In this document: positions 3,916-27,397 of the stretch, piece after piece | How the letters are laid out: each line of letters starts with the position of its first letter | Numbering within the stretch: the stretch's first letter is position 1 | DNA from: Elusimicrobiota bacterium | GTDB lineage: Bacteria; Elusimicrobiota; Elusimicrobia; UBA1565; UBA9628 | Assembly (NCBI GenBank): GCA_013044195.1 | Contig: JABEUV010000016.1 | Location: 1 to 37,356 of the forward strand | Direction: 5' to 3' | DNA length: 37,356 nucleotides | Notes under the pieces: generated by a model | Databases searched by the model: none | The model's input: only the letters and a program-made list of their open reading frames with translations | What the model was told of the DNA's origin: nothing | Position numbers and translations under genes: made by a program

Positions 3916-4015
3916 CGCCGCGTTGCCAAACCGCCGTTCAAGAGGTAAAGTCAAGCCATGCGATCCTTTCGTGCGGCCTACGTCCGGCAAGGCTGAGTCT
4001 TCACCCGGAAGCACG

Positions 4016-5407
4016 ATGACCCATCGGCACGCACGTTCGACGCCACCCGAGACGCCCGACAGAACCGAGGCGTTGCTGTCGTCGCTTCGCCGCAAACGCA
4101 GCGAAGTCGCGGAGCGCTTTTCGCCGCGACGGCTCAACGGCTGCCGCCCGGCGGACGTGCGCAGCGTGCTGATGATCGTCTCCGCCTCGCGCAGCGGCTC
4201 CAGCGTGCTCCACTATTTGCTGGCGCGCCTGCCCGGCGTGGTTTCGCTGAACGGAGAGGACAGCGTCTTCACCCGTCTGCACGGCCTCGGCTGGGCGAAA
4301 TCGACGGACGACTCGGACTTCATCGCGCCCGAGGACGCCGCCGCTCTGCGCGTCGCGCCGTCGATCGCCGAAGACATCCTGTTGGACTCCGGCGAACTGG
4401 CGTCTCACGCGCCCGCCGACAAGCACTTGCGCGAGAATTATTTGGCCGACAGCGTGCAGCGCCTGCTCCTGCAGTTTCCGCAAGCCGACGCTTCTCCCGA
4501 CAAACTTTTGCAGGCCTGCACGGCGGCTCTCGGCGATCGCGCCCCGAACCAGCCGGGGTTTTCCGCCGCCGACTATTGGCGCCTCGCGCTCGAACGTCTT
4601 CACGGCGCGGGCCTGGACGCGCGGCTCGGCTATTACGACCTGCGCGGCAGCGATCCGGCCGCCGATTTCCCGAACCGCGGCAACTCGTTGCCGCCGCCGT
4701 TTTCCAATATCTGTCTGGAAGAACCGCCGTTCGTCGTCCCTCAGCCGCGGCGTCTGCCGGACCCGAAGGAATTAGAACACAAGACCCTGCTTTTAAAATC
4801 CTCCTCGGATTGTTATCGCCTCTGGCTGATCCGCCGCCTCTTCCCAAACGCACGCTTCAAGTTCGTGGTCTTGGCCCGCAACCCGGCCGCCGCGATCAAC
4901 GGCTTGATGGACGGCTGGCTGTCCGACGGCTTCTACTCCCAGAATCTCGGCCACATTGCCGCCCTGGACGTCCAGGGCTACAGCCGCGACGACCGCCCCT
5001 GGACGAGACAGTGGTGGAATTTCGACCTGCCTCCGGGCTGGGCTCAGGTCCGCACCCGGCCCCTCGAAGAAGTGTGCGCGCGGCAATGGCTCTCGGCCAA
5101 TCAGCATATCCTCAGCGGCATACGCAGCGGCCTTATCGAGGAACGCCTGGACGTCCGCTATGAGTCTTTCCTGGAGCCGCGTTCGCTGGCGGGGACGCTG
5201 AGCGCGATCGGCCGCTTCGCCGGCCTGACGGGGGACCCGACCGCGAGCGTCGGGTGCATCCCTCCAGTGATGTCGGTGACTCCGCCGGCTCCGCAAAAAT
5301 GGCGCAAGCGCCGCGATCTTTTGGCCGCGCTGGTCCAAGACGGTGAGATTGCCGCGCTGGCACGAGAGTTCGGCTACGCCCCCGAGCGGTGGGAGTCCTG
5401 GGCATGA
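4016..5407 (+). CDS. Sulfotransferase-like protein (divergent)
   Basis: 5'-PSB-like SASRSGSSVLHYLLARLPGVVSLNGED and 3'-PB-like FKFVVLARNPAAAINGLMDGW; ATG 4016 preceded by GGAAG. ORF also open from 3923. Confidence 0.65.
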   Translation: MTHRHARSTPPETPDRTEALLSSLRRKRSEVAERFSPRRLNGCRPADVRSVLMIVSASRSGSSVLHYLLARLPGVVSLNGEDSVFTRLHGLGWAKSTDDSDFIAPEDAAALRVAPSIAEDILLDSGELASHAPADKHLRENYLADSVQRLLLQFPQADASPDKLLQACTAALGDRAPNQPGFSAADYWRLALERLHGAGLDARLGYYDLRGSDPAADFPNRGNSLPPPFSNICLEEPPFVVPQPRRLPDPKELEHKTLLLKSSSDCYRLWLIRRLFPNARFKFVVLARNPAAAINGLMDGWLSDGFYSQNLGHIAALDVQGYSRDDRPWTRQWWNFDLPPGWAQVRTRPLEEVCARQWLSANQHILSGIRSGLIEERLDVRYESFLEPRSLAGTLSAIGRFAGLTGDPTASVGCIPPVMSVTPPAPQKWRKRRDLLAALVQDGEIAALAREFGYAPERWESWA

Positions 5408-6375
5408 CGCGCGCGACGCGACCCGCCGCCTATCAAGGGCCCGGCTGGCGGCCGCGCCGGGTAAGCCTGAGCGACGACATGGCGCGGGAGCGGGGCCCAT
5501 GGTCCCGCCGCCGCGTCGACTCTGAATACAAGCGGCTGGAAGAAGTGATTCTTCATTGCCCCGGCGACGAACTCTCGCGCGTCCACGTGCCGAACGCCGT
5601 TCAGCACCTTGAGCGCATCGACGCGGCGGCGATACGCCGGGAATACGCCGTCCTCGCCGCCGCGCTTCGTAAGTTGGGCATTGAGGCGCATCGGCTCCCT
5701 CTTGGATCCGGTAGCGCGTCGTGGCCGGCGCAGCCCAATCTCATGTTCGCGCGCGATCTTTTCTTCAACACGAAGGAAGGCGCCGTCGTGTCTCGCATGG
5801 GCAGCGCCGTGCGGGCGGGGGAAGAAAAGCACGCCGCGCTGGCGCTGGCGTCCTTGGCCGTTCCCATCAACCGGACCATTTCCGGCACCGGGACCTTCGA
5901 AGGAGCGGACGCGCTTTGGCTCGACGCGCACACGGTCGTCTGCGCGGTCGGCGGACGCACGAACCCGGAAGGACTACGGCAACTTCGCGAAGCCCTGAGA
6001 CCGCAAGGCGTCGACGTTCTCTCGGTCGCTCTGCCCCAAGGGTTTCAGCATCTGTTGGGCCTCCTCCAAATCGTCGACAAGCGCTTGGCCTTTTTAAGAC
6101 ACGAGCGCGCTCCCCAGGAACTCTCACGCCTGCTTCTGAAGCGTGGATTCTCGATCCGCCCCGTGCCGGAATCGGAGGAGACGGTCGTCCGGCAAGGAAT
6201 GAATCTGGTCGTCGTCGCGCCCCGGACGATCCTGATGCCCCACGACTGTCCGAGTCTCAAGCGCTATTACGAACGCTCCGGCTTGACCGTCGCCGCCGAG
6301 CTGGATATCCGGCAAATCCGACGCGGAGCGGGCGGGCTGGCCTGCGCGGTCGGAATCGTGTCGCGACGGACCTAA
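5404..6375 (+). CDS. Arginine deiminase / dimethylargininase / amidinotransferase-fold (pentein) protein
   Basis: NLMFARDLFFNTKEGAVVSRMGSAVRAGEE, GTGTFEGADALWLDAHTVVCAVGGRTNPEG, QHLLGLLQIVD, and C-terminal Cys motif GAGGLACAVGIVSR match the order of guanidine-modifying pentein motifs. ATGA overlap with upstream gene. Confidence 0.8.
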   Translation: MTRATRPAAYQGPGWRPRRVSLSDDMARERGPWSRRRVDSEYKRLEEVILHCPGDELSRVHVPNAVQHLERIDAAAIRREYAVLAAALRKLGIEAHRLPLGSGSASWPAQPNLMFARDLFFNTKEGAVVSRMGSAVRAGEEKHAALALASLAVPINRTISGTGTFEGADALWLDAHTVVCAVGGRTNPEGLRQLREALRPQGVDVLSVALPQGFQHLLGLLQIVDKRLAFLRHERAPQELSRLLLKRGFSIRPVPESEETVVRQGMNLVVVAPRTILMPHDCPSLKRYYERSGLTVAAELDIRQIRRGAGGLACAVGIVSRRT

Positions 6376-6376
6376 G

Positions 6377-7408
6377 ATGACGAACGACTCTCCGATCTTC
6401 ATCATCGGCACGGAGCGCTCGGGGTCGAACCTGCTCCGCCTGATTCTCAACGAGCATCCGTCGCTCGCCATCCCGCATCCCCCGCACCTGCTCAAGGACT
6501 TGATGCCGCTGGCGCCGTGCTACGGGGATTTGGGCGCGGACGAGAGCTTCCGCCGCCTCGTCGACGACGCCGTCACGCTGGTGGACCTGCATTTCTCGCC
6601 GTGGGACGTCCGCGTCGACCGCGAAGAGGTCTTCGCCCGGGCGCCCGGCCGCAGCGTCTACGGCGTCAAGGCCGCGATCTACGACCAATACCGCCGCTCC
6701 AAAGGACGCCGCCGCTGGGGCTGCAAGAGCACTTTCGTCATCCATTACGTCGACCAGGTCCTCGCAATCCACCCGGACGCGCGCTTCATTCACCTGGTGC
6801 GCGACGGACGCGACGTCGCCGTGTCGGCCAAGACCTCGGTCTTCAATCATTTCCATCCGCACTACGTCGCCCGTCTCTGGGCCGAACAGCAGAAAACGGC
6901 GATCGCCCTTTCACGCTCGCTCTCCGCGGAGCAGATGATCTGCGTTCGCTATGAAGATCTCTTGGACGATCCCGCCCGGGAGACGCGACGCGTGTGCGGC
7001 TTTCTCGGCGAAGACTATTCCGATTCTCTGCTGGACTATTTCAAGGGCGCCGAAGCCAAAAGACTTGCCGCGCAGAGCCGTTCATGGGAGAACGTGTCCA
7101 AGTCGGTGCTGAAGGGAAACCGCTCCAAATACAAGCGGGAGCTGAGCGCCCGTGAAATTCACGCCTTCGAGCTTCAGGCCTTCGAGCCTCTCGCGCACTA
7201 CGGCTACGCGCTGGAAAATGATCCGGCTCTGTTGAGGGCCGAAGCACGGAAGCCGCTCGCTGTCGCGACACGATTGCGTTATTGGACGGCCGAGCAGGCG
7301 ATGAGCGCGCGCATGGGCGCGCAGGCGCTTCTTGCCGACCGCAATGCTTTCCTGCGTTTAAGAAAGAATCTGTTCCTGCGCAAGCTGCGTCTGTTGCGAC
7401 GAGCCTAA
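6377..7408 (+). CDS. PAPS-dependent sulfotransferase family protein
   Basis: FIIGTERSGSNLLRLILNEHPSLAIP (5'-PSB), FIHLVRDGRDVAVSAKT (3'-PB), ICVRYEDLLDDPARETRRVCGFLG. Confidence 0.88.
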   Translation: MTNDSPIFIIGTERSGSNLLRLILNEHPSLAIPHPPHLLKDLMPLAPCYGDLGADESFRRLVDDAVTLVDLHFSPWDVRVDREEVFARAPGRSVYGVKAAIYDQYRRSKGRRRWGCKSTFVIHYVDQVLAIHPDARFIHLVRDGRDVAVSAKTSVFNHFHPHYVARLWAEQQKTAIALSRSLSAEQMICVRYEDLLDDPARETRRVCGFLGEDYSDSLLDYFKGAEAKRLAAQSRSWENVSKSVLKGNRSKYKRELSAREIHAFELQAFEPLAHYGYALENDPALLRAEARKPLAVATRLRYWTAEQAMSARMGAQALLADRNAFLRLRKNLFLRKLRLLRRA

Positions 7409-7431: not shown

Positions 7432-8292
7432 TCAAGAAAGGCGCTGGAGCGCCTCGCGGGCTTCCGTATAGTCCGGGAACAGCAGCAGCGCGGTTTGATA
7501 ATGCGCGCGGGCTTCTTCATGTCGGCCCGAACCCGCACAGAGGTCGGCCAGCAGCTTGCGCGACGTCACGTAATTCGGGTCGCAGCGCAGGCAGGCGCGC
7601 GCATGCGCCTCCGCCTCCTTGGGGGAGCCCGTTTTCAAAGCCACATACGCCCGCGTGTGGTGCAGAAGCGCGTAGTCCGCGTCGAGCGCCGCGGCCCGGC
7701 ACAATTCGGCGCGAGCTTCCTCGAACCGCTCGAGATAGGCGAGCGCGATCGCCCCGTAGACCGGAGCGCGGAAATCGTCCGGCTCCGCGTTGGCGGCTTC
7801 CCGCGCCCAGGACAGCGCTTCCTCGTGGCGCCGCGCCTGCAGATGCGCCTGGGTCAACAGAAGCATGTTCGTCGAATCCTTCTCCAACTCGACGAGCGCT
7901 TGAAAGTGAACGACCGCACTTTCGACGGAGCCCGCTTCCAACTCGACCGAGCCCCGCGCCAACGTCATATCTGCGGGGGGCGCGTCGAGTTTTTCCGCCG
8001 CGGCCAACGCGGCGTCCGCCTCGGCACGACGAAGCAGGGACCCCAGCGTGATCGCCCGGTAGACATAGGCCGACGCGCAGACCGGGTCCAACCCCAACGC
8101 CACGGCAAACTCCGCAAGGCCGCGTGCGGTGTCGAAGCGGCTCTCCTTGACGCAGAAGAAGCCCAGATGCGCGTGCGCGTCGGCGGACGTCGGATGGCGG
8201 CGAACGGCCTCTTCAAAATAAATCCGGCCGGCCGTCCAGCGATCCCGCCGGAAGAAGCGCCGCGCCTCTTCACGCAAAAGGCCGGGGATCAT
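7432..8292 (-). CDS. TPR-repeat protein
   Basis: Repeated TPR-like helices: AGRIYFEEAVRRHPTSADAHAHLGFFCV, PDDFRAPVYGAIALAYLERFEEARAELCRAAALDADYALLHHTRAYVAL, EEARAHYQTALLLFPDYTEAREAL. Confidence 0.8.
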   Translation of the reverse strand: MIPGLLREEARRFFRRDRWTAGRIYFEEAVRRHPTSADAHAHLGFFCVKESRFDTARGLAEFAVALGLDPVCASAYVYRAITLGSLLRRAEADAALAAAEKLDAPPADMTLARGSVELEAGSVESAVVHFQALVELEKDSTNMLLLTQAHLQARRHEEALSWAREAANAEPDDFRAPVYGAIALAYLERFEEARAELCRAAALDADYALLHHTRAYVALKTGSPKEAEAHARACLRCDPNYVTSRKLLADLCAGSGRHEEARAHYQTALLLFPDYTEAREALQRLS

Positions 8293-8308: not shown

Positions 8309-10249
8309 TCAGACCGGCTTGCGGGCGGAGAACACGCACCATCTCCACAGGTCGCGGATTTCGCCGGAGGGCGAGATCGTGAAAGGATGAACGGCCTTGG
8401 CCTCCGCCGGGGCCTCGCGATACAAGCGGCGAATCTCGTGGCGGTGGAGGGGGGTCGTCTCGTAGCTGTCGATCCAGACGTCGATGGACTCCCAGACGTT
8501 CATCTCCTTCATCTCCAGATCGATGAATCCCGCGTCCGTCAGCAGACGCCGGAAATCCTCTTCCTGGAACATGTTGTAGATCAACGGCTGCTTCTTCTTG
8601 AAAATGCGGTACATCCACGCCGCGTCCGCCGCGCCGAACGGCAGTATTTGGCCGACGATGAACTGCCCGCCCGGCTTCAAGACGCGTCGGATCTCCGAAA
8701 CGGGCTTCTCCGGAAAAGGAAGCAGGTGCAGGACCTCACGCGTGCAGACCAGATCGAAGCGATCGGCCTCGAACGGTATTTTGTAGACGTTGCCCTGCCG
8801 CACCTCATCCAGCCGCGTGCGCGCAAGGTCCACCATTTCCGGCGTCAGATCGAGGCCCACGACGGTCTTGACCCGGCTCTTGAAAGACGCGCCCACCACG
8901 CCGCTGCCGCAGCACACATCCAGCACCGTGGCCTCCGGGCCTTGCCGGCAGAAATCCGCGTGCGCCTGCAGCAATTCGCCGTGCGTGATCCAAACGGCGG
9001 AGTCGTGCCAATTTTTGGAGCGGGCGCCGAACTGCTCCTTGTAAATCCGCTCGTCGACGTCTCGGTAGACCTGTTGGAAATAGATCTTGTCGGCGGCGCG
9101 GCGTGCCGCGATGCGGTCTCGTCGCACCTGCAGTATGCGGTCCGACACGATGCCGGCGGCTTGCGGATGCCGGCGCAGATACTCAAGAACCTGACCGCTG
9201 ACCGCGTCTTCAATGACGTCGGCGACGTCCGGGTTCGTGAGGCGGGATTTGGTTTGGCTTTCGAAATTGGGACGCGCCAGCTTCAAATTGACGACGGCTG
9301 AAAGGCCTTCCGTCGCCTCGTCGATTTCCGTGGGATCCTCGCCGCCGGTCTTGCCCATCTCCGACATGATGCGGTTGATCGCCCGCGTCAGGCCCAGCTT
9401 GAAGGCGGCGACGTGCGTGCCTCCGTGCCGGGTATTGACGCAGTTCACGTACGACCAGATCGCGGGACCGCGGCCGGTGGTCCACTGCAGCGCGGCTTCG
9501 AACATCAGGCCGTCCGCGTCCGCCCGCACCGCGATCAGCTCCGGGGTCAGCGCGCGCGCCTGGGCATTCAGCCGCGTCAGCAGCCCCGCGATCCCCGAAT
9601 CGGCACGATAGACCGAGGAAGACCCGCTTGCCTGCGCCGCCAGCACGAACTCGACGCCCGGATTCAGGAAAGCAAGCTCCTCAAGCAGCAAACGGGATTC
9701 ATCCTCGCTGAAGCCCTGAAAACCGCGGAAAATCTCCGGGTCCGGCCAGAACGAGATCCGCGTGCCGCTTCCCGCCTCCGCGCCGACCGCCTTCAACGGA
9801 TAAACGGGTTCGCCGCGCCGGAATTCCTGGACATGACGGCGGCCGTCGCGCACGATCTCGATTTTCAGCCAGGACGAAAGCGCGTTGACGCAGGACAGCC
9901 CGACGCCGTGGAGTCCCGCGCTGTAGAAGCCGGTGCCGCGCTCGAACTTCGTGCCCGAGTGCATGCGCGTCAACACCACCTCGCAGGCGGACACGCCTTC
10001 CGTGGGATGCCGTTCGACGGGTATGCCGCGACCGTCGTCCTCGACGCGGCAGAAGTCCGCTCCAAGGGTGACGACAATCCGCGAACAGGCCCCGGCCAGG
10101 GCTTCGTCGACCGCGTTATGCACCAGCTCACGCAAGAGCTGGTGCGCCCCCTCGGCGGAGACCGCCCCGATATACATCCAGGGATTACGCCGGACCGCCT
10201 CCAGCCCGGAGAGAACGACGACGTCGCCCGCCGACAGGCCGTCAGCCAC
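8309..10249 (-). CDS. GyrB/ParE-type GHKL ATPase + transducer domain fused to C-terminal class I SAM methyltransferase (no TOPRIM)
   Basis: GTG start at 10249. Residues ~1-390: GLEAVRRNPWMYIG, ELVHNAVDEALAG, EDDGRGIPV, MHSGTKF...YSAGLHGVGLSCVNALS, HGGTHVAAFKLGLTRAINR, NFESQTKSRLTNPDV. Residues ~395-646: TVLDVCCGSGVVGASF, VVGLDLTPEMVDLARTRL, DRFDLVCTREVLHLLP, IRRVLKPGGQFIVGQILPFG. No EGDSAGG or DADVDG TOPRIM motifs. Confidence 0.93.
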   Translation of the reverse strand: MADGLSAGDVVVLSGLEAVRRNPWMYIGAVSAEGAHQLLRELVHNAVDEALAGACSRIVVTLGADFCRVEDDGRGIPVERHPTEGVSACEVVLTRMHSGTKFERGTGFYSAGLHGVGLSCVNALSSWLKIEIVRDGRRHVQEFRRGEPVYPLKAVGAEAGSGTRISFWPDPEIFRGFQGFSEDESRLLLEELAFLNPGVEFVLAAQASGSSSVYRADSGIAGLLTRLNAQARALTPELIAVRADADGLMFEAALQWTTGRGPAIWSYVNCVNTRHGGTHVAAFKLGLTRAINRIMSEMGKTGGEDPTEIDEATEGLSAVVNLKLARPNFESQTKSRLTNPDVADVIEDAVSGQVLEYLRRHPQAAGIVSDRILQVRRDRIAARRAADKIYFQQVYRDVDERIYKEQFGARSKNWHDSAVWITHGELLQAHADFCRQGPEATVLDVCCGSGVVGASFKSRVKTVVGLDLTPEMVDLARTRLDEVRQGNVYKIPFEADRFDLVCTREVLHLLPFPEKPVSEIRRVLKPGGQFIVGQILPFGAADAAWMYRIFKKKQPLIYNMFQEEDFRRLLTDAGFIDLEMKEMNVWESIDVWIDSYETTPLHRHEIRRLYREAPAEAKAVHPFTISPSGEIRDLWRWCVFSARKPV

Positions 10250-10664
10250 CGGAAAGCTTCCTCAATTTTTGGACATGAGCGCGCTTCGCTTTCTCCAGCG
10301 TGTCGAACCAGCTGGCGATATCCGGAAACCCTTCCGCGCGCGCCGCCTTCGCCATCTCGGGATAGGTCCGGCCCTGCTGGCGCGCTTCGATCTGCAGAAG
10401 CGACTCCATATTTTTGAGCGTGCCGCCGACCGCCAGGCCGGAATCGGGGTCTCGCGCCAGCTTGAGAAAATCGAAGCAGCCCTGCACAAAATCCTCGCCG
10501 CCTTCGGCGATTTCTTTGAACAGCGCCGAATGCCGGTCCAAGCCTTCAAAATCCGCCAGCACGGAGAAGTAAAGGTATCGGTACGCCAGCGCCGCTTCCT
10601 CGGCGAAGGCGGCCCGAAGATTCTCGAACGTTGTGGACTTGGCGAACTCGCCCTCGTCGGACAT
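10242..10664 (-). CDS. Rubrerythrin/ferritin-like-fold protein with apparently degenerate metal site
   Basis: MSDEGEFAKSTTFENLRAAFAEEAALAYRYLYFSVLADFEGLDRHSALFKEIAEGGEDFVQGCFDFL...TYPEMAKAARAEGFPDIASWFDTLEKAKRAHVQKLRKL aligns by eye to rubrerythrin helices. Stop overlaps start of the GyrB-like gene by 8 nt. Confidence 0.7.
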   Translation of the reverse strand: MSDEGEFAKSTTFENLRAAFAEEAALAYRYLYFSVLADFEGLDRHSALFKEIAEGGEDFVQGCFDFLKLARDPDSGLAVGGTLKNMESLLQIEARQQGRTYPEMAKAARAEGFPDIASWFDTLEKAKRAHVQKLRKLSGG

Positions 10665-10675
10665 CGATCCCGGGG

Positions 10676-11422
10676 TCAACCCTTCTTCTCGGCGCGGATG
10701 AGAAGAAAAAGCATCGTGTCGAAGATGTCGTCTTCGGTCGTCTCCACACGGTGCAGGCGCTTGAACTCCGGCGAAGACGCCCGATACGCATCGCGGATGG
10801 CCTCGCGCTCTTCCGGCCGGTTGGCGCCGTGACCGATCCAGGTGTTGACCGACTCCCGCGACAGGTGGCGAACATTCCGGGTCACGGACAGCCCGGACGC
10901 CTCCAGCGCCGCTTCCAAATCGCCGGGCATGAAGAAATTGACCCGCGCCGGGTTGCGCAGCGCCTGAATTTTGAACGCGTCGGCGCGATCTTCCGGCCCG
11001 TACGCGTTCAGGTGGCAGAAAACCGCGCGCCCGCCTGGTTTCAGCACGCGCGCGACCTCCGCCAGAGCCTTCGGAAGGTTCGAAAACTGTAGCCCTTGGC
11101 GGCAAACGCACGCGTCGATCGACCCCGAATCCAGAGGGATGGCTTCCATCGGCGACAGGATCATCCGGTCCACGTGGGCCGAAGCGGACCGAGTCATGTC
11201 CGTCGATATGTCGAGGCCGATCACTTCCTTGGCCTTGCCGCGAAAGCAGCGGGCGACCAAGCCGGTACCCGTCGCCAAGTCGAGCAACGTCTCGCCCTCG
11301 GCGATCTCGGTCAACGAGAAAATGTTTCCAAGCAATTCCGCGTCTGAAACCCAGCGCGACGACCGGTCGTATGAGCGGCTGCGCTCTTTAAAATGCTTGA
11401 GGGCTTTTTCTTTGTTGTCCAT
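10676..11422 (-). CDS. Class I SAM-dependent methyltransferase (Methyltransf_11-like)
   Basis: LLDLATGTGLVARCFRGKAKEVIGLDIS, ALAEVARVLKPGGRAVFCHL. Similar by eye to the C-terminal domain of the fusion protein. Confidence 0.88.
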   Translation of the reverse strand: MDNKEKALKHFKERSRSYDRSSRWVSDAELLGNIFSLTEIAEGETLLDLATGTGLVARCFRGKAKEVIGLDISTDMTRSASAHVDRMILSPMEAIPLDSGSIDACVCRQGLQFSNLPKALAEVARVLKPGGRAVFCHLNAYGPEDRADAFKIQALRNPARVNFFMPGDLEAALEASGLSVTRNVRHLSRESVNTWIGHGANRPEEREAIRDAYRASSPEFKRLHRVETTEDDIFDTMLFLLIRAEKKG

Positions 11423-11494: not shown

Positions 11495-12376
11495 TCATCC
11501 GGGAGCCATCGCCCGCATACGGCCCAACCCCGCATCGACCCCGATCGGCGCGGCGCCCACGGCCGCCCGAACCTTATCCGTGCGTAGCGAACTCTCCTTC
11601 GGCCTCGGCGCAATCGAGCCGAACTCGGCGGAGGAGACGGGCCGGATCAGGCGATCGTCCAGACCGAACGCGCGCGCGGCGCGCGCGGCGAACTCGGCGC
11701 GGGAAATCCGGTCGGCGCCGACGACGTGAAAAACACCCGCCTCGCCCGAAGCCGCCAGTGAGGCCGTGATCTCCGCCAGGTCGTCGCAGAAAGTCGGATT
11801 GTAGCGAACGTCGCCGGCCACGCGCATTTCCTGGCCCGCCGACAGCCGCGCGCGCACCTGGAGCACGAAGTTCTTCGGCTCGCTCTGCCAGCCGTACACC
11901 CCGGAGGTCCGGATCACCAGATTGCGCGAACTCTCAGACAGCACTCCGCGCTCGGTTTCGGCCTTCTGACGGCCATACTCGTTGATCGGCGACGGGGGGT
12001 CGTCTTCCGTGTAGAAACCCTTGGCCCCGTCGAAGACATAATCGGACGAAAAGAAGATCATGCGCGCCCCGGACTCACGGCAGGCGCGCGCGACATTCAG
12101 CGTGCCGAGGACGTTGACGCGGCGGGTTTTCTCCGGCTCACGCTCGCAGCCGTCGACGTAGGGGTCGGCGGCGGGCACGGCGACCACGTCCGGACGCCGC
12201 TCCGTCAAAGTCCTACGGATCGAATCCGGGTCGGTCATGTCCAGCGCCGAGAAATCTCCGGCCCCGAAACCGCGTCGGGAGGTCGCCGATACGTCCGCAC
12301 CGAGCGCCCGCCAGGCGCGCAGAAGCGCACCTCCGACCAGGCCCGTGCCGCCGACCACAAGTATGCGGGAAGCCAC
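11495..12376 (-). CDS. NAD(P)-dependent extended SDR, RmlD (dTDP-4-dehydrorhamnose reductase)-like
   Basis: ILVVGGTGLVGGALLRAW, FFSSDYVFDG, INEYGRQKAETE (YxxxK), VIRTSGVYGW. GTG start. Confidence 0.87.
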   Translation of the reverse strand: MASRILVVGGTGLVGGALLRAWRALGADVSATSRRGFGAGDFSALDMTDPDSIRRTLTERRPDVVAVPAADPYVDGCEREPEKTRRVNVLGTLNVARACRESGARMIFFSSDYVFDGAKGFYTEDDPPSPINEYGRQKAETERGVLSESSRNLVIRTSGVYGWQSEPKNFVLQVRARLSAGQEMRVAGDVRYNPTFCDDLAEITASLAASGEAGVFHVVGADRISRAEFAARAARAFGLDDRLIRPVSSAEFGSIAPRPKESSLRTDKVRAAVGAAPIGVDAGLGRMRAMAPG

Positions 12377-12492
12377 TCCGGGAAGTCTAGCAAAACGCCC
12401 CGAGAGGGGGGGCCTAAAGGCCCAGGCGCCAAAGCGGCTCTTCGTGGTATCATACAGCCATCGACTACTTCATCCGTCGACGTCTCGCTCCG

Positions 12493-13215
12493 GTGTTCCT
12501 CGCGGTCTCGGTCGGCGCGGCCGCGCAGGGTCCGCGTGGACTCATGGTCGCCGCCCCGCGCCTCTCGGACCTGTACGCGGGCGCCCATCCCATTCTCGCC
12601 CCCGGCTCCGCCGCGACCCACCTCCACCAGCAACTTGTCGTCCCCGTCCCCATGCAGACGGCCGCCTACCGGCACACTTTCCGGACTTTGCTTGCCAACC
12701 CCAGCAAGACCGACCGCTATGACGAGCTGATCTTTAAATACGCGCTCCGCGACGGCCTGGATGCGCGCCTGCTCAAGTCGATCATGGCCGCCGAGTCCGA
12801 GTTCGATCCGTCCGCCGTCTCTCCGGCGGGCGCGCGCGGCCTGATGCAGGTCATGCCGCGCACCGCCGCCCACTTTGGGGTGTCGCCGTCGCGTCTGCGT
12901 GACCCCGAGGGGGGAATTCGCGCCGGCGCCGGCTACGTGCGCGAGCTCTTCCGCACGGCCTCGAGAGAATACCATCTCAAGGGCGTGCGCTACACCGACG
13001 CGCCGCCGTGGCTGGTTCAGCGCGTGATCGCGGCCTATCACTCGGGGCCTAAGGCGTTGCGCAGCCGCCGCTGGTATGCGTCGACGCGCGCCTACGTGCG
13101 CAAGGTCGTGCTCTACTACGATTCGAACGTGACCGACCTGCGCCGCCCGCTGGCCGCGACCCGCGCCCTGCCTGCGTTCGCGGAGACGCTGTCGTCGAGC
13201 GGGACGCTCTACTGA
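12493..13215 (+). CDS. Lytic transglycosylase (SLT domain)
   Basis: LLKSIMAAESEFDPSAVSPAGARGLMQVMPRTAAHFGV...AGAGYVRELF...VIAAYHSGPKAL. Start uncertain. Confidence 0.87.
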   Translation: MFLAVSVGAAAQGPRGLMVAAPRLSDLYAGAHPILAPGSAATHLHQQLVVPVPMQTAAYRHTFRTLLANPSKTDRYDELIFKYALRDGLDARLLKSIMAAESEFDPSAVSPAGARGLMQVMPRTAAHFGVSPSRLRDPEGGIRAGAGYVRELFRTASREYHLKGVRYTDAPPWLVQRVIAAYHSGPKALRSRRWYASTRAYVRKVVLYYDSNVTDLRRPLAATRALPAFAETLSSSGTLY

Positions 13216-13637
13216 TGATGCGTCGCCGGGCGCTCTTGCTGGCCGCCGCGGTCGCCGCTTCGGCCTGCGCGGTTCCCGCACCCTGCACGCGCGCCTTGTG
13301 CCCGACGCGCGTCGAGGGCGCCTATCGACTGCACGGCTGGAAGGGCGACGCGGTCGTCACGCCGCTGACGCCGCCCCTTCCGATCACCTCCGACGTCGAA
13401 GTCCGGGTTCTTTCCGGCGACCTTGAGTTCGTCAATAACGACGCGCTGGTGCGCGCCGTCGCCGGAGCCGACTTCCATATCGAGGTTTCCACCGCGCCGA
13501 TGCCGATCCCGGAACTCTACGTCTCTTCCGGTTCCGTCATCGTCGCGCAACGCCCCGGTCAACCGTTCGTGATCATTCCTCCCGGAACACGCTGGCTCCT
13601 GCCGCGCTCGCCGAAAGCCGTCTTGCACTTGTATTAG
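13215..13637 (+). CDS. Hypothetical secreted/lipoprotein-like protein
   Basis: N-terminal MMRRRALLLAAAVAASACAVPA; beta-rich remainder; coupled to upstream gene. Confidence 0.6.
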   Translation: MMRRRALLLAAAVAASACAVPAPCTRALCPTRVEGAYRLHGWKGDAVVTPLTPPLPITSDVEVRVLSGDLEFVNNDALVRAVAGADFHIEVSTAPMPIPELYVSSGSVIVAQRPGQPFVIIPPGTRWLLPRSPKAVLHLY

Positions 13638-13643
13638 CCCGCG

Positions 13644-15140
13644 TCAGCCCTGCTGAAAGAACAGCGCCACGCTGACGATCGTCGCCACCACGCCCACGCC
13701 GATCAGCACCCAAAGCAGGAATTTGATCTCGTCGCGGGACTGGGCCGGAGGCGCGGGCGGCGGGGCCGACGGCGGAACGGAGGGATCCTCCGCCGAAGGA
13801 AGAATCGACGGCACCGGATCTCGCCGCGGCGCGGCGGCGGGCGCGGCGCCGACGTAACCCTCGACCTCCTGGGAAATAAGCCTGCGCCGCTGAGCGGACT
13901 CCTCTTTGAGGCGCTCCAGTTCCGCGCTCAACGACTCCGGTTCGGGAGCGACCGCGCGTACCGCCGAACGCTCCGCGGCGATGTCGTCGTAAAGGCGGCG
14001 GCGCTCCGCCTCCAGCGTCTCGCGCATCCGCGCCAATTCGCGCTCCGAACTCTCGCGCAGGTCCGACTTCAAGGCCTCCAATTCCGCGCGCGCGGCGCGC
14101 TCAGCCTCGACGAGCGCCAGGCGAGCCTTATCGCGCTCCTCCGCCCGCTTGCGCTCCTCAAGCTCCGCGCGAAGCTTCGCCTCGCGCGCGCTCTCGAACG
14201 CCTCCACGCCCTCGCGGCGAATCTGTTCGGCGTTTTCGATCGCCGCGTCCGCTTTATGCCGCGCGGCGGCCAGCTCCGCCTCCAGCCGGACGCGCTCTTC
14301 GTCGAAGGCGCGCTTCTGCTCGGCGCGTTCCGCTGCGCCTTTCTGAGCGGACACGGCCGCCTCGCGTCCGGCCGCGGCCTCGTCGCGAAACTTCGCCGCC
14401 TCCGCGCGCGCCGATTCCAACAGCGCCGCGACCGAGTCCCTCTCCGCTTTCAGACGCTCTGACTCGGAGCGTAGTTGGGTCAGTTCCGCGCGCAAAGACT
14501 CCACGTGCGCCTCGTGGCCTTCCACTTTGCCGCGCAGAGCCTGGTGCTGGGTGCGCGCCTCGCGCAGTTCCGCCTCGTGCGCGCGCGCCCGTTCGCCCGT
14601 CGCCGCCGCAGCCCGTTCCGCACGCTCCACGCGCGCGGCCGATGCATCGACCTGAGCCCGCAGGGCCTCCAACTCCGCCTTCGCCTTCTCCTCGCTTTCG
14701 CGCCGACGCGCCGCGTCGGGCATTAAATCGCCCAGCTCCTTCTCCAGATTCTCGCGGCGCGCGCGCTCCGCCTCCAGCGCCGTTCCCAACTGGCGCCGCG
14801 CCTCGGCCGCCACCCGCAGCGTCTCATCCAGCTCGCGCGCCAGGGCCGTGGCCGAGACCGCCTCGCGGTGCAGCGCCGACGAAGTCTGCTCAAGCTCGGC
14901 GACGCGCCGCCCCAATTCCTCCGCGCGGGCGCGCAAGCGCTCCTTGGCGCGGATCTCCGACTCCAGTTCCAGCGTACGAGACTTCAAGCGCCGGTCCAGT
15001 TCGTCGGCCCGATGCTCTTGGCGCGCGATGTCCGCGTCGCGCCTCAGCGCCGAAGCCGCCCCGGACGGACTCTCGCTGAATTCCGCCGACATTTCCGATG
15101 CCGCGGCGCGCAATGTCCCGTCATCCCTATTCGTGTCCAT
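13644..15140 (-). CDS. Coiled-coil protein with C-terminal transmembrane anchor
   Basis: Long Ala/Glu/Arg heptad-like region, Pro-rich linker (PSAPPPAPPAQ), C-terminal hydrophobic KFLLWVLIGVGVVATIVSVALFF. Confidence 0.75.
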   Translation of the reverse strand: MDTNRDDGTLRAAASEMSAEFSESPSGAASALRRDADIARQEHRADELDRRLKSRTLELESEIRAKERLRARAEELGRRVAELEQTSSALHREAVSATALARELDETLRVAAEARRQLGTALEAERARRENLEKELGDLMPDAARRRESEEKAKAELEALRAQVDASAARVERAERAAAATGERARAHEAELREARTQHQALRGKVEGHEAHVESLRAELTQLRSESERLKAERDSVAALLESARAEAAKFRDEAAAGREAAVSAQKGAAERAEQKRAFDEERVRLEAELAAARHKADAAIENAEQIRREGVEAFESAREAKLRAELEERKRAEERDKARLALVEAERAARAELEALKSDLRESSERELARMRETLEAERRRLYDDIAAERSAVRAVAPEPESLSAELERLKEESAQRRRLISQEVEGYVGAAPAAAPRRDPVPSILPSAEDPSVPPSAPPPAPPAQSRDEIKFLLWVLIGVGVVATIVSVALFFQQG

Positions 15141-18024
15141 TGATTTTCCTTTCCAGCTCCGCGCAGCGCGCGGCGGCGGCCTTCAGCTTCTCCAGCGCCG
15201 ACGCCGTCTCCCGCTCCGCCTTTTGCGCGCGTTCCAGTCCTTCTTGCTGGAGCTCCCTCGCCCGCTCCAAAGAACCGGCCGCCAGCGTTCGTTCGGCCTC
15301 GGCCTCGTCTTTTAGGCGGTTCGTTTCGGCCACGGATTCCTTAACCTGCTCGCGCGTCTGGGCCAAGCGCTCGGTCAACTGCCGCGCGACGGCGCGCATC
15401 CGGTCGCGGTATTCAGCCAAAGTGCGCTCCATCTCTTCAGCGCGCGCGCGTTCCTTCGCGACGGCCTGGGAAAACTCCGCTTCCAGTTCGGCGCGCGTCT
15501 TCTTCTCGACGTTGCGCGCCTGCTCCAACGAGCGCGCCGCGATCTCACGCTCCATCGCCGCTTCGGCCTTGAGGTGCTTGGTCTCCTCGGCCGCCGCCTT
15601 CACCTGCGCGCGCGTCACCTCCAGCTTTTCGGTCAACTGCCGCGAGACGGCGCGCATGCGGTCGCGGTATTCGGCCAGCATGCGCTCCATATCGCCGGCA
15701 TGAGCGGCGGCCTGAGCGTGCGCCGCGCGTGAGCGTTCGAATTCCTGCTCCGCGCGCTCCGCGCGCGCTCTCTCCTCCGCCAACGCTCTCGCGTGCCCCG
15801 TCTCCAATTGCTCGCGTGTCCGATTCTCGACGTCGCGGGCCTGCTCCAGCGCCCGCGCCGCCAACTCGCGTTCGAGCGCCGCCTCCGACTTAAGACGCTC
15901 GGTCTCTTCAATCGCGGCCTTGACCTGCGCACGCGCGCGCGTCAGGCGCTCGAACAGGCGGTTCGAGGTCTCCTTCATCAGCTCGCGCTCGTCGACGATC
16001 CCGCTTTCCAGCTCCACCAGACGGCGCTCGGCGCTCTCCCGAGCCTCTTGAGCCTCGGCCCGCTCACGCGCAGAGCGCTCCGTTTGGGCGGTCAGGGCGG
16101 CGAGCCGCTCGGCGAACGCCGCCCCGACGCGCGCCTGAGTCTGCACCTCAATGGCGCGGGCCTGTTCCAAGGAGGCCGCCGCGATCTCGCGCTGCATCGC
16201 CGCTTCGGCCACCAGGCGCGAGGCGTCTTGCGCCGCCTGACGTGCGCGCGCCCGCGCCGCGCGCAGCATGCGCGACGTGGCGGTCGTGAAGCGCTTGAGT
16301 CTCTCCTGCGTTCGCGCCAGGTCCCGAGCGAGGGTTTCGGCTCTTGTGCGAGCCTCCGTCTCGGCCAGTCGGCCCAGTTCGAGGTGAATCTCCGCCTGAT
16401 CCGCGCGGGCACGATCGACCTCCAACTCCCGCTCCAGCTCTTTTCTTTGGGCCAGGAAGGTTTCGCGCTCGGCGCGGATGCCGTCGTCGACCAAGGTCGG
16501 AATCTGCGTCTCCAGCGCGACCGCGCGCTCCAGGCGCTCCTGGGCGGAATCCGCCAGGCGCTGGGCCTCGGCGCGACGCGTCTCCTGCTCCGCCACGGCA
16601 AGCAAGCGCGCGGCCAGCTCTCGCTCCAGTTCCGTCGCGCGCGCGCGCAGCGCGGAAAGCTCCGAGACCGCCGCATCGGCGCGCGCCGACTCCAGCCTTC
16701 GCTCTTCCTCGGCGACCTGTCGCCGTCCGGCCTCGATGCGCGCCGCCGCCAACTCCGACTCCAGTTTTGCCGCGAGTGCGCGCAGTCGCTCGGCCTCGTC
16801 GCGCGCACCCGACGCGCGCAACTCCAGTTCGAATGTCTCGACGCGGAATCTTTCGGTAAGTCGTTCGAGCTCGGCCTGACGCTGAGAAGAAAGCCGTTCG
16901 GACTCGGCTAAGGCGTCCGCGCCGCGCCGCTTGGTCTCGGCGATATCCGCAGCTCTGCGCCTCTCGGCCTCCGCCAAGCGGCCCGAGGCCTCCGCGCGCG
17001 CTTCGTCGGACGCGGCGCGCGACTGCTCCAGGGCGGCGGCCAGAGCCTCGCGGTCGGCCGCGCGCTGGCGCGCGTCCTCCAGCGCTTTTTCCCGTTCGTC
17101 CGCGGTCTTGCGAAGGGCCGCCGCTTCCGACTGCGCCGTCTGCGCCGCGGCGCGCAAGACAAGAACGGCCTCATCGGCCGCGAGGCGCTTCTCGCCCTCG
17201 ACGCGGGCCTGAACGAGCGTCGCCTCCAGTTCGCTCTGTAGCGCCTTAATGCGCGACTCAATCTGAGTCGGCGACAGCTCGGGGCGGCGCTCGGCGGCCA
17301 GCGCGCGCTCGCGCAGAACGGCCGTCTCGCCTTCCTTGGCCTCCAGAGTGAAGCGCAGTTCCTCCAGCCGCGCCTGAAGCAGCTTCGCCGACTGCCGGTG
17401 CGACGCCGACTCCAGTTCCGCGTCCGCCGCGCGCGCCTGCGCCGCCGCGGCCGCCCGGCGCGCCTCCTCCGCCGCGGCCGCGCGGCTCTCCGCCAACTCC
17501 AGCGCGCGCTTCTCCTGCGCAAGAGCCTCCTCGATGCGCGCCTGCGCCGTCGCCGCGCGGTCGGCGACCAGGCGTTCCAGCTCGGCGGCCCGCTCATCGG
17601 CGCGCGCCGCCGCCTCCTTGGCCTGGGTCAGAGCCTCGGCCGACGCGCGCTCGCGCTCGGCGGCGGCGGACAACTCCGCGGCGACGGCGTCGCGGCGCTC
17701 ACGCTCGCGCGCGACGGCGGCGGACAACTCCGCGGCGACGCTGTCGCTCCGCTCGCGCTCGCGCGCGACGGCGGCCGCGGCTTCCGCAAGGCCGCGGCGC
17801 GCTTCTTGCGCCCGCGCCTGCGCGTCATCCAGGCGGCTCTTCAGCGCGGCCGCCTCGGCGTGCACGCCGGCGGGGGGGATGACCAGGTCCGAAAGCCGTC
17901 CGGTGAACGCGTCGGCCGGCGTCGATTCCGGCGGCTCGCCGCGCTCGCGCGCGCGGCGGCGTGCGGCGAGAACCTCCTCGACCTCGCGGCGGTAGTCGTC
18001 CTTCCAGGGCTGAAACGAGTCCAT
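15127..18024 (-). CDS. Very long coiled-coil protein with internal repeats
   Basis: ATG at 18024 (MDSFQPWKDDYRREVEEV...). Nearly continuous heptad-like sequence; 18-aa and ~86-aa internal repeats. Supplied ORF extends upstream to 18321, but the 18024 start follows a promoter-like sequence. Confidence 0.75.
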   Translation of the reverse strand: MDSFQPWKDDYRREVEEVLAARRRARERGEPPESTPADAFTGRLSDLVIPPAGVHAEAAALKSRLDDAQARAQEARRGLAEAAAAVARERERSDSVAAELSAAVARERERRDAVAAELSAAAERERASAEALTQAKEAAARADERAAELERLVADRAATAQARIEEALAQEKRALELAESRAAAAEEARRAAAAAQARAADAELESASHRQSAKLLQARLEELRFTLEAKEGETAVLRERALAAERRPELSPTQIESRIKALQSELEATLVQARVEGEKRLAADEAVLVLRAAAQTAQSEAAALRKTADEREKALEDARQRAADREALAAALEQSRAASDEARAEASGRLAEAERRRAADIAETKRRGADALAESERLSSQRQAELERLTERFRVETFELELRASGARDEAERLRALAAKLESELAAARIEAGRRQVAEEERRLESARADAAVSELSALRARATELERELAARLLAVAEQETRRAEAQRLADSAQERLERAVALETQIPTLVDDGIRAERETFLAQRKELERELEVDRARADQAEIHLELGRLAETEARTRAETLARDLARTQERLKRFTTATSRMLRAARARARQAAQDASRLVAEAAMQREIAAASLEQARAIEVQTQARVGAAFAERLAALTAQTERSARERAEAQEARESAERRLVELESGIVDERELMKETSNRLFERLTRARAQVKAAIEETERLKSEAALERELAARALEQARDVENRTREQLETGHARALAEERARAERAEQEFERSRAAHAQAAAHAGDMERMLAEYRDRMRAVSRQLTEKLEVTRAQVKAAAEETKHLKAEAAMEREIAARSLEQARNVEKKTRAELEAEFSQAVAKERARAEEMERTLAEYRDRMRAVARQLTERLAQTREQVKESVAETNRLKDEAEAERTLAAGSLERARELQQEGLERAQKAERETASALEKLKAAAARCAELERKINGHE
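15371..15690 (-). repeat. Two ~86-codon coiled-coil modules within the long coiled-coil gene
   Basis: Protein segments MERMLAEYRDRMRAVSRQLTEKLEVTRAQVKAAAEETKHLK and MERTLAEYRDRMRAVARQLTERLAQTREQVKESVAETNRLK; DNA tcggtcaactgccgcg starts at 15371 and 15629 (258 nt apart). Confidence 0.7.
17652..17775 (-). repeat. 54-bp (18-codon) tandem repeat, about 2.3 copies
   Basis: gacaactccgcggcgacg begins at 17669 and 17723; encodes AAVARERERSDSVAAELS / AAVARERERRDAVAAELS / AAAERERA. Confidence 0.75.
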
Positions 18025-18035
18025 GTTGCTTCCGG

Positions 18036-18064
18036 AGTATAACGTCTCGATGTTACAGCCGCAA
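18036..18064 (-). promoter_or_regulatory. Candidate sigma70-like promoter for the coiled-coil gene
   Basis: Reverse strand TTGCGG - 17 nt - TATACT, 11 nt upstream of ATG 18024. Confidence 0.4.
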
Positions 18065-18147
18065 GTCGAAACGGGCCCGATGGTCCCATATATACCTAGG
18101 ACCTTCGGCCCTGCTTTGCATGGGTCTTGGCGCGTCATGCTGGCGCC

Positions 18148-19593
18148 ATGAGCATCGACTCCGCGCGCACGGCGGCGTTGGGAACGGCGGCCCTGCTCAT
18201 GGCCGGAATTTCGGCCCTGCTTCTGTTCCCGCCGGAGACCGAGCATGACTTGGAACCGGGTCTCGGCGGCCCCGGCTTTGAAAGGCCGGGTCCCGGCGGC
18301 CCCGGAACCTCGGCGCTCCAAACGCGCGGAGCTTCACGGGACCTCGCGGCCGCGGCGGCCGAAGACGACGACGCCGGCGAGCCCGACGATCTTCGCGACG
18401 CTCCCGCCGAGAACCCGGCTCGCGGCAGGCCCCGCGGCGAGCCGCTGTTTTCCAACGGCGGGCTTGATGCGCCACGCGGGACGCGCGGTTCGTCGCCGAG
18501 GACCGCCGTCGTCCGCGCCTCGGTCGAACGCGACGACCGCGGCTTGGCGCGGCCGTCGCCCCGACTCGGGCGTGCGACGGAGTCGTCGCCGCGCGCGTCC
18601 GTTCGCCGCGAGTCGACACGACGCTCGCTTGCCGACGACGCGCCAAGACGTCGGCTTGCCGCCGGCGCCGAAAGGACGGCGCGGCGCGATTCCTCATTCG
18701 CGCGCACGGCCGCGTCGCGCCGCGGCCGCTCGCGCACGGGCGACCTGGGAGGAGGCTACGGCCGCTCCGGGCACAGTCGCGCGGGGGGAGGGCGCGCCGC
18801 GTCCTTGTTCGAACCGTCCGGCTCCGGCGGCCGACAACGCGGGGATTCCCGCGAAAGACGCCGTCGTCGCCGCGATTTTTCGCCTCGCAGACTCCCGCGC
18901 CGCGCCCGCGGCGCAGCTTCCGGCCGCGGCCGCGCCTCCGCGCGCCGCTTCAAGCCGCTTCTACTGGGCTCCGCGCTGGGGCCCAAGTCTCTGCGCCCGC
19001 CGGACGGGAAGCTGGAGCCGCCGCCGGCACTCCTGGCGCTGCCCGACCGTCGCCCCCAGAACGACTCCGCCGGCCGACCGACGCCCGCGGCCTTCGCCGA
19101 TCTGGCCTCGGCGGAAGCCCTGAATCCCGCCGAGCTTGCGCGCGACCGGCACGCGGGTCCGCATTGGGACAAGGACCAATGGCACGACGGGCCCGCGCGC
19201 GGGGTCGATCAAGGCGTCTCGTGGCTGTGGACCTACCGCGACGGCCCGCGACTATGGGCCTTGGCGGGCCGGCCCGCCGCGCCCCTGCTGCGCCGCGGCG
19301 GCGTATGGTGGATGAAGCACGACGGCATGTGGTTCGTCGTGCACGAAGGCGAACCCTGGGCCCTGAGACATTTCGCCGACTGGGACGCGCAGGGCTTGTT
19401 TCAGCCCGCGACCGGAACGCAGATCGTCTACAGCTCCGACTACTCCCGCGCCGCGGTGATCAGTCCGGGCCAAGGCGCCGAGGTCTTCGACGCGCGCACC
19501 GGCGCGCTCATCGCAACGATTCCTGAAGACCGCATGCCCGCGCCGCGTCGGCCGAAAGCGCCGGAGTCCTTGCCCCCGCTTGCGACGCGCTGA
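18148..19593 (+). CDS. Hypothetical secreted/membrane-anchored protein with low-complexity middle
   Basis: MSIDSARTAALGTAALLMAGISALLLFPP N-terminal TM/signal; folded-looking C-terminus (HWDKDQWHDGP...GGVWWMKHDGMWFVVHEGEPWALRHF). Middle is Arg/Gly-rich and its reading frame is uncertain. Confidence 0.6.
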   Translation: MSIDSARTAALGTAALLMAGISALLLFPPETEHDLEPGLGGPGFERPGPGGPGTSALQTRGASRDLAAAAAEDDDAGEPDDLRDAPAENPARGRPRGEPLFSNGGLDAPRGTRGSSPRTAVVRASVERDDRGLARPSPRLGRATESSPRASVRRESTRRSLADDAPRRRLAAGAERTARRDSSFARTAASRRGRSRTGDLGGGYGRSGHSRAGGGRAASLFEPSGSGGRQRGDSRERRRRRRDFSPRRLPRRARGAASGRGRASARRFKPLLLGSALGPKSLRPPDGKLEPPPALLALPDRRPQNDSAGRPTPAAFADLASAEALNPAELARDRHAGPHWDKDQWHDGPARGVDQGVSWLWTYRDGPRLWALAGRPAAPLLRRGGVWWMKHDGMWFVVHEGEPWALRHFADWDAQGLFQPATGTQIVYSSDYSRAAVISPGQGAEVFDARTGALIATIPEDRMPAPRRPKAPESLPPLATR

Positions 19594-22326: not shown

Positions 22327-23679
22327 TTATCGCGTGGCGCCAAAGGGCAGGCCGAGTAGCGCGTCCAGCGTCAGGCGGTCGGAGTCAAGGGCCGCGCGCA
22401 ACCGGATGGATTCCTGCGCATCTTTCAAGAGCGATGTTTCGAGGCCCACGTAAGCGCCTGTGTCCATCGTCCCGCTGCGAAACTGCTGCTCGGCCGCGGC
22501 CGCGATCGCCTTCAGGGCCGAGGTTTGGGCCTGCAAGCGCTCGAGCTGCTTGGCCATGATGAGCGTGGCCTGCCAGAGCCGGTCGGCTTCGCTGTGGGCT
22601 TCGTCCAGTCGGGCCTGATAGTCGGCGCGCAGTACTGCCCGGCTTGCGCGCTCGATGGCGATTTGGCCTCTATTGCCGTTGAATACGGGAAGGCCGATGT
22701 CAAAGCCGAGATTGACCGCGGGAATGTTGTCTTGCGGGTCCTGGCCCTGCGATAGTCCGACGTTCAAGGCTGGAAACTGGGCCAGCACGGCTTTGCGCAA
22801 GCGCTGTTCCTGGCTTTCGTAGCCCGCCTGGAGCGCGAGGAGATCCACGCGGCGTCCTCCCAGAGCGGCGAGGGCGGCCTCGAATTGGTCCTGAGAAAAG
22901 GCTTGGTTCGCGGCTGCGCCCGGACGCTCAGGCTTCGCAAGCGCCGGGCGCGCTTGCGGAGCAAGGCCCAGCAGGTAGTTGAGCCGGTGTCGCGCCGTGT
23001 CGGCATCCAGTTGAATCCGGCGCAGGCCGGCGTCGGCGTCGGCCAGGACGGTGAGATCGGCCGCGACTTTCTGGATTGCGGACGCGCTTTGCTGAAAGTC
23101 GGCCTGATCGATGTCGTATTGCTCAGCGAGGAGTTTCCGGGTCCATTCAAAGACCTCCTCAAGATCCTCGTCCCTGCGCGCACGGACAAAGAGCCGGCCG
23201 GCCGTCACCGCCACCTGCCACTCCTGCCAAAGGATAGTCAAGTCGACTTCCTTTCGATGGGCCCGCGCCTGGGCTTGGGCCGCGCCGCGAAGGACAAAAG
23301 CTTGAAGATCCTCGCTGATGCCCTCGCTGTAGCCGGTGAACTGCGGCCCGCGCCCCACGCCGGCGCTCAGATGCGGATCGGGCAGGAGCCCCGCCTCGAT
23401 GAGTTGAGCCTCGGCCACGCCGGCCCGCAGGCGCGCGGCCTTGAGGTCAGGGTCATTGACGACGGCCAAGGCCATGGCGTCGCGCGCGTCGAGGCCCTGC
23501 GCGGCCTGCGTTGAGACGGCGAGGCCGGGGACTTGAAGACCCATGGCCGGCGCGCCAAGACTTGGCGTCTGAGCTAGATCGGGCACGGTCGGCAAGATCA
23601 TGGGGGAGTAGCTGGCGCAACCCGACAAGAGCGGTATTGCGACCGCCGCGAGCCAGAGCGCCGAAAGGCGGCGGGTCAT
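22327..23679 (-). CDS. TolC-family outer-membrane efflux lipoprotein
   Basis: Lipobox LLSGCASYSP; DARDAMALAVVNDPDLKAARLRAGVAEAQLIEAGLLPDPHLSAGVG is typical of OMF proteins; followed by RND genes. Confidence 0.87.
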   Translation of the reverse strand: MTRRLSALWLAAVAIPLLSGCASYSPMILPTVPDLAQTPSLGAPAMGLQVPGLAVSTQAAQGLDARDAMALAVVNDPDLKAARLRAGVAEAQLIEAGLLPDPHLSAGVGRGPQFTGYSEGISEDLQAFVLRGAAQAQARAHRKEVDLTILWQEWQVAVTAGRLFVRARRDEDLEEVFEWTRKLLAEQYDIDQADFQQSASAIQKVAADLTVLADADAGLRRIQLDADTARHRLNYLLGLAPQARPALAKPERPGAAANQAFSQDQFEAALAALGGRRVDLLALQAGYESQEQRLRKAVLAQFPALNVGLSQGQDPQDNIPAVNLGFDIGLPVFNGNRGQIAIERASRAVLRADYQARLDEAHSEADRLWQATLIMAKQLERLQAQTSALKAIAAAAEQQFRSGTMDTGAYVGLETSLLKDAQESIRLRAALDSDRLTLDALLGLPFGATR

Positions 23680-26738: not shown

Positions 26739-27397
26739 CAGTTCGGAGCCTGATAGCTTTGGGCGACGTTGCGGTGGAATCGTAGGTAGGCATCGGCGAC
26801 CACGATCCGCGTTCCAGGCTTGAGCCCGCGCTCGATGAAGGTCTGCCAGCCGCGCGTCGGCCCGAGTTCAACCTCCTGGGGCACATCGCCCGCGGGCGTG
26901 CGCGCAAGAACCCACCAGCGCCCGCCATCGAGGATCAGGGCGCGTGTAGGGACTGAGACCAGCGTCTCAACGGGTCCGATCAGCGTGACCGTGCCGAACA
27001 TTCCATTCGCCCAGTCCGGTCGCGGGGACGCCGCGAGCAGGGCCACGGACTCTCCGCCGTCGGCTCTCAAGAGGCCGAACTTCGCGCAGACCTTGACCGG
27101 CACCGTTCGACCTGAACTCGCGGGCACGAAGGTCCCGCTCATTCCCGCCCGGATGGCATTCACATCGGCGCCGTAAAAGGCGGCCTTGAGCCAAAGCCGG
27201 TCGGAGGCCGGGCAGCTTGAGGGGCGGGCGTTTCCCCATGCGACCGGCGGCTCGACCTGCGCGTAGACCGGGTAGCGAGTACTGACCGTGCTGGCGATGA
27301 CCGTTACGACGTCGGGGTCCGGCGCAGGACTCGCCGCAAGGGCCGCCGTGCCCACGAGTTGAAACGTCAGCATCACACCCAATAATCGCGGAAGCAT
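26738..27397 (-). CDS. Short RND membrane-fusion (adaptor) protein
   Basis: Signal peptide; beta-barrel-like LWLKAAFYGADVNAIRAGMSGTFVPASSGRTVPVKV and SVPTRALILDGGRWWVLARTPAGDVPQEVELGPTRGWQTFIERGLKPGTRIVVADAY. Confidence 0.75.
   Translation of the reverse strand: MLPRLLGVMLTFQLVGTAALAASPAPDPDVVTVIASTVSTRYPVYAQVEPPVAWGNARPSSCPASDRLWLKAAFYGADVNAIRAGMSGTFVPASSGRTVPVKVCAKFGLLRADGGESVALLAASPRPDWANGMFGTVTLIGPVETLVSVPTRALILDGGRWWVLARTPAGDVPQEVELGPTRGWQTFIERGLKPGTRIVVADAYLRFHRNVAQSYQAPN

Follow-up and report, generated by a model that had tools for sequence, protein, structure and literature searches.

A GyrB-type ATPase clamp joined to a methyltransferase in a sulfotransferase gene cluster of Elusimicrobiota

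The window analyzed in this work, a stretch of 37,356 nucleotides from an Elusimicrobiota MAG of 3.36 Mb in 299 contigs, contains a group of adjoining genes around an unusual gyrase-like reading frame. On the plus strand lie the sulfotransferase ST1 (3923..5407, Sulfotransfer_3), an enzyme of the DDAH/arginine-deiminase superfamily in which the catalytic Cys, His and Glu positions are kept (5389..6375), and the PAPS sulfotransferase ST2 (6377..7408, Sulfotransfer_3). These are followed on the minus strand by a TPR protein which adjoins the fusion and is found in genera g1 and g16 (7432..8292), the fusion gene itself (8309..10249), an erythrin, i.e., ferritin-like, pseudo-enzyme whose start codon is tentative and whose stop overlaps the start of the fusion by 8 bp (10242..10649), and a second class I methyltransferase, MT2, a conserved partner gene whose product is 27-28% identical to the fused methyltransferase (10676..11422). 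An RmlD-like NAD-dependent sugar reductase (11495..12376, minus strand) is adjacent in three g1 genomes, and its membership in the cluster is unsure. A minus-strand ORF at 12235-13281 was rejected as a gene, as the plus-strand SLT gene at 12493-13215 is far better conserved.

The fusion gene encodes a protein of 646 aa in which a GyrB-type GHKL/transducer ATPase is joined to a class I SAM methyltransferase. Its frame opens with a GTG at 10247-10249 and runs to the stop at 8309-8311. It is uninterrupted, as the first-pass annotation had described it, and a stop or join looked for between aa 385 and 415 is absent. The GHKL (Bergerat) ATPase domain comprises aa 1-218 (9596..10249, minus strand; HATPase_c, residue table and AF2 model), the transducer domain of S5 fold aa 219-388 (9086..9595, minus strand; DNA_gyraseB and PDB fold matches), and the methyltransferase approximately aa 398-646 (8312..9058, minus strand; Methyltransf_11, alignment to stand-alone homologues and AF2 model). 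The Pfam matches span aa 33-171 for HATPase_c (5e-13), 219-387 for DNA_gyraseB (2e-36) and 443-532 for Methyltransf_11 (1e-21). About 10 residues link the transducer helix to the methyltransferase, and in alignment the stand-alone homologues of relatives start near the same point as the methyltransferase half, at about aa 398. NCBIfam GyrB models cover aa 7-388 (8e-113) and end there; Pfam finds no Toprim match in the protein, the EGDSA motif is absent, and the fusion thus lacks the TOPRIM domain with EGDSA and DxDxD that marks the B subunits of type IIA topoisomerases. There is likewise no GyrA-binding C-terminal tail, the residues past the transducer being occupied by the methyltransferase, so that the earlier claim of a methyltransferase in place of TOPRIM holds. 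This second half shows the Rossmann fold and glycine-rich motif I (LDVCCGSG) of Methyltransf_11-type enzymes. Neither a DPPY/NPPY or PCQ motif nor a DNA-methyltransferase Pfam family was found in the fusion, in agreement with its initial assignment to the non-DNA methyltransferases, and the sole DNA-methyltransferase-like PADLOC match is a weak one to a generic MTase_II (2e-4). An assembly chimera was rejected, as the same architecture occurs in nine genomes, and a GyrB43-type ATPase with a methyltransferase and without TOPRIM is confirmed as a real single gene.

The GyrB motifs first read from the sequence are all present, including GLHG.G in the GHKL domain, and the protein carries the residues that define the GHKL ATPase and transducer of GyrB/ParE (E42/N46/D73/K103/Q335/K337). 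Across the full copies aligned, the equivalents of E. coli GyrB E42, N46, D49, D73, R76, G77, P79 and K103 are kept in seven of seven, as are those of G114-G117, G119, R136, T165, Q335 and K337; the Q335/K337 transducer loop corresponds to Q332 and K334 of the window copy. The Tyr109 equivalent is partly kept among the aligned copies and the dimer-arm Tyr5 is present in some members only. By these kept residues the fused protein would be a GHKL clamp closing on ATP, from which we infer hydrolysis and ATP-dependent dimerization. The best solved relatives of the GyrB half are the GyrB 43-kDa fragments of E. coli (1EI1/4WUB) and Thermus (1KIJ), which share its GHKL and transducer fold and its ATP-site residues and match it as far as aa 387 with about 40% identity. 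The fusion differs from these and from gyrase in the absence of TOPRIM and of the GyrA-binding tail, in the joined methyltransferase, and in two substitutions, G24W (in an invariant NPWMY) and G102S/T at the ATP-lid glycine, which occur in all aligned members and in neither of the two gyrases compared.

AF2 reached a pLDDT of 52.9 with an alignment of 8 rows and of 91.6 (pTM 0.66) with one of 69 rows. The latter monomer model predicts a GyrB43-like GHKL and transducer, a helix at 362-396 and a well-predicted methyltransferase from residue 400, and Foldseek aligns the model with GyrB43 structures at a TM to target of about 0.9. At this pTM the predicted orientation between the GyrB and methyltransferase parts is uncertain. 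Given the joint of about 10 residues, motion of the transducer should carry the methyltransferase along.

The fusion is not the gyrase of its host, because the same genome has a full-length gyrB of its own, 40% identical to the GyrB half, near gyrA in a dnaA-dnaN-gyrB-gyrA locus; this separate locus, together with the tree described below, also excludes the host gyrB or its pseudogene as the identity of the fusion. The architecture was found in nine of 341 genomes of the phylum, from uncultivated bacteria of two families, and in six of the 56 genomes of the order, with identities of 62-95%. The nine are the window genome (G000), G017 (95%), G202 (70%), G170 (69%), G199 (68%), G004 (67%), G052 (66%), G038 (65%) and G011 (63%). 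Seven of the eight further copies have open frames, that of G202 being split across two contig ends. The G038 copy (L116, G038:C30), with a frame of 641 codons, is open but for one TAG, which is in frame at aa 308 within the transducer and well before the junction; this may be a sequencing error, a pseudogene or a case of readthrough. The sensitive search covered this one phylum; a wider contig scan, made with short peptides from one sequence, had the 95% relative as the sole fusion among the matches listed. Extended matches L030, L046 and L067 were rejected, being ordinary gyrBs with TOPRIM, and plasmid carriage was rejected as well, with none of 41 plasmid matches covering 80% of the query. 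Phylogenetically, the GyrB halves of the nine fusions group in a single clade (support 100), which has a long branch and lies apart from every gyrB sampled, and G052, of family f1, groups with members of f10, a placement which suggests that the fusion has moved between families.

The erythrin gene is closely tied to the fusion. The overlap between its end and the start codon of the fusion is exactly 8 bp in all nine genomes, and homologues of at least 52% identity occur, among the 341, in exactly these nine. This coupling and this distribution indicate that the erythrin and the GyrB-methyltransferase protein travel as a unit. The partner matches sulerythrin and rubrerythrin (PDB 9ONM, 1J30) over its whole length, but in every member four of the six diiron ligands are lost (the equivalents of E53, H56, E95 and E126, in a numbering that is our own assignment to sulerythrin), so that the six-ligand site by which rubrerythrins and erythrins are recognized is not there; the ordinary erythrins L183 and L184 of related genomes (43% identity) keep all six. 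Exact translational coupling to such a pseudo-enzyme suggests a stoichiometric complex, and could be taken to mean that the GyrB domain is a constitutive dimer platform for the methyltransferase, MT2 and erythrin, with ATP merely stabilizing the fold. The faster evolution of the GyrB half relative to the methyltransferase half would fit such a platform, although the invariant hydrolysis residues suggest turnover, and we regard a scaffold of this kind as unlikely; with the decoy discussed below, it is one of the two chief competitors of our preferred reading.

Both halves are under purifying selection: dN/dS (Nei-Gojobori) is 0.10-0.38 in the GyrB half and 0.08-0.21 in the methyltransferase. 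These values, 0.08-0.38 over the two, together with the intact ATPase residues, speak against decay and uphold the original view that a decayed gyrase is unlikely. A neutral or decaying fusion, in which the methyltransferase alone matters, would be compatible with the faster change of the GyrB half and with the TAG found within the transducer of one of the nine copies; it is nevertheless very improbable in view of the dN/dS of that half, of ATPase motifs that are invariant at 54-62% identity, of the single origin of the fused clade and of the 8-bp coupling retained throughout.

The conserved neighbor set consists of ST1, the DDAH/ADI-like enzyme, ST2, the TPR protein, the fusion, the erythrin-like protein and MT2. 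Elsewhere the same locus also holds a B12-binding radical SAM gene, CysD and CysN (ATP sulfurylase) and APS kinase; an MFS transporter is part of the cluster in a subset of genomes. The window genome carries its radical SAM and CysD/CysN genes on a separate contig (C243); in the 95% relative they share the contig of the fusion, from which the radical SAM gene is separated by about 13 kb. This gene, at 64% identity or more, is present in 11 of the 341 genomes, including all nine with the fusion, a co-occurrence over order alone of p = 8.6e-7 with kinship ignored. More distant relatives of it (46-50%) occur in G190, G169, G210, G188, G179 and G325, and in G004 it is split over two frames (L110 5827-6504 and 6543-7385), by frameshift or assembly error. 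Both of the f10 genomes that were read at length also encode, close to the cluster, a type I phosphodiesterase/sulfatase-like protein of 658-659 aa (L142 2315-4291, L143 928-2907). The locus combines PAPS supply, sulfotransferases and tailoring enzymes, as is characteristic of sulfated natural-product clusters, and probably yields a compound that is both sulfated and methylated; no scaffold-making enzyme was recognized among the cluster genes scanned.

Two radical SAM genomes, G043 and G042, have no fusion. The locus of G043 comprises the radical SAM gene, two methyltransferases, ST1, DDAH, ST2, APS kinase, CysD and CysN, with the GyrB domain absent, while in G042 a methyltransferase of this kind adjoins the radical SAM gene at the edge of a contig. 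These unfused methyltransferases share 43-45% identity with the fused enzyme, and in an unrooted methyltransferase tree they fall on the fused side, with MT2 apart; a profile search found no erythrin in the loci read in the two genomes. The presence of unfused methyltransferases in these clusters indicates that the methyltransferase is a cluster member and that the GyrB clamp is the addition. The clamp is present in most but not all cluster versions and, the tree being unrooted, its gain would be the simpler reading compared with its loss. The unfused clusters also show that the chemistry has no strict need for the clamp, which counts against a gating role.

Three roles had been put forward for the protein, namely an ATP-gated methyltransferase, a clamp encircling DNA or a polymer so as to position a modifying enzyme, and a decoy for a gyrase-ATPase inhibitor. 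The gene cluster, MT2, the exact 8-bp overlap with the metal-less erythrin and the unfused forms of relatives had escaped that first reading. The first role is favored by the cluster, while a DNA-modifying enzyme is disfavored by the lack of DNA-methyltransferase motifs and families and of restriction or defense neighbors. An anti-phage system was rejected, as PADLOC yields generic methyltransferase and radical SAM matches only. More broadly, the clamp formed by GyrB43 in gyrase encircles DNA, and the fusion might do likewise or form mixed N-gate dimers with cellular GyrB and methylate something there. The fusion transducers are on average more basic than those of gyrBs (+5.0 vs. -2.9), yet the window copy is not basic (pI 5.9), it is only about 40% identical to the host's own GyrB, and its neighbors are biosynthetic, all of which makes a DNA- or gyrase-directed regulator improbable.

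The decoy proposal supposes that the product of the cluster inhibits GyrB at its ATPase site and that the fused GyrB43, with a tailoring enzyme attached, binds this product or its precursor and so captures a toxic intermediate. Every residue of the novobiocin/ATP pocket that was checked is in place (D73, R76, R136 and T165 equivalents), the gene stands among biosynthetic genes, joined in some genomes by an MFS transporter, and clusters without the GyrB domain exist. However, the invariant Q335, K337 and E42 serve hydrolysis and not inhibitor binding, and would be superfluous in a passive decoy; no known gyrase-inhibitor scaffold genes were recognized in the cluster. Target-based gyrase resistance as known relies on a full-length resistant GyrB with substitutions at the ATP/coumarin site, while here TOPRIM is absent and D73, R136 and T165 are unchanged. 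We regard the decoy reading as quite unlikely.

Our preferred reading, to which we give somewhat less than an even chance, is that a GyrB clamp which closes on ATP operates or gates a tailoring methyltransferase and that the metal-less erythrin is its partner. Tailoring is favored because of the cluster context, and gating because the hydrolysis residues are invariant, beyond those for nucleotide binding. If the protein behaves as GyrB43 does, the paired GHKL domains of a dimer would close when ATP is bound and open again once it is hydrolyzed through the conserved Glu and Gln-x-Lys loop; as the long helix of the transducer leads directly into the methyltransferase, closure could pair two methyltransferase domains or enclose a substrate. 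The metal-less erythrin, encoded just upstream, would be the likely stoichiometric partner. Against this reading stand the faster evolution of the GyrB half, the patchy retention of Tyr5, the uncertain orientation between the two parts, the lack of a recognized scaffold-making enzyme and the unfused clusters. In its fuller and still more tentative form this tailoring reading is of a metabolic methyltransferase with clamp-gated catalysis, i.e., a GHKL-transducer engine taken out of DNA topology which may pair or enclose active sites round a sulfated natural-product intermediate, again with erythrin in attendance.

The known settings of GyrB/MutL-type GHKL-transducer clamps are DNA topology and DNA repair. 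The absence of any described system of this kind, as asserted at the outset, is borne out within the open-access papers searched, in which no GyrB-methyltransferase fusion was found and the combination of architecture and cluster has no described counterpart. The closest parallels are the MORC/paraMORC GHKL-S5 ATPases of restriction-modification neighborhoods, where the engine is paired with effectors that include methylases in adjacent genes (PMC2292703). Those are of MutL/MORC type, DNA-directed and neighbored by DNA methylases, whereas the present protein is of GyrB type, has its non-DNA methyltransferase covalently attached and lies in a biosynthetic cluster; the helicase, endonuclease and DNA methylase neighbors that mark MORC/paraMORC systems were not found at the fusion loci. 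PDB 3CWV, named by its depositors "DNA gyrase, B subunit, truncated", is like the fusion a GyrB N-terminal half without TOPRIM, but its 369 aa include no methyltransferase and it is far more distant (8e-23, vs. 1e-83 for E. coli GyrB). Arabidopsis GYRB3 is a GyrB-derived domain in a fusion which is not a gyrase subunit; unlike our protein, it keeps the transducer only, with Gln at the Lys337 position, and is fused to a SANT-like domain (PMC2845627). Should this conserved and selected clamp indeed serve the biosynthetic methyltransferase, small-molecule chemistry would have recruited a GyrB-type clamp as its ATP-driven gate or scaffold; otherwise the fusion may be a new form of gyrase-linked self-resistance. 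As the module is a single gene these readings are directly testable, and the uncharacterized B12-radical-SAM/sulfotransferase/DDAH cluster is itself a target for genome mining.

Elsewhere in the window, an SMC-like coiled-coil ORF of 498 aa (13644-15140) and an ORF of 1064 aa with no Pfam match (15127-18321), both on the minus strand and both about 78-79% identical in G017, form a two-gene unit. Two RND-type efflux loci, at 22327-27397 and 28566-34344 on the minus strand, encode AcrB-like pumps of 1020 and 1096 aa together with outer-membrane factors.
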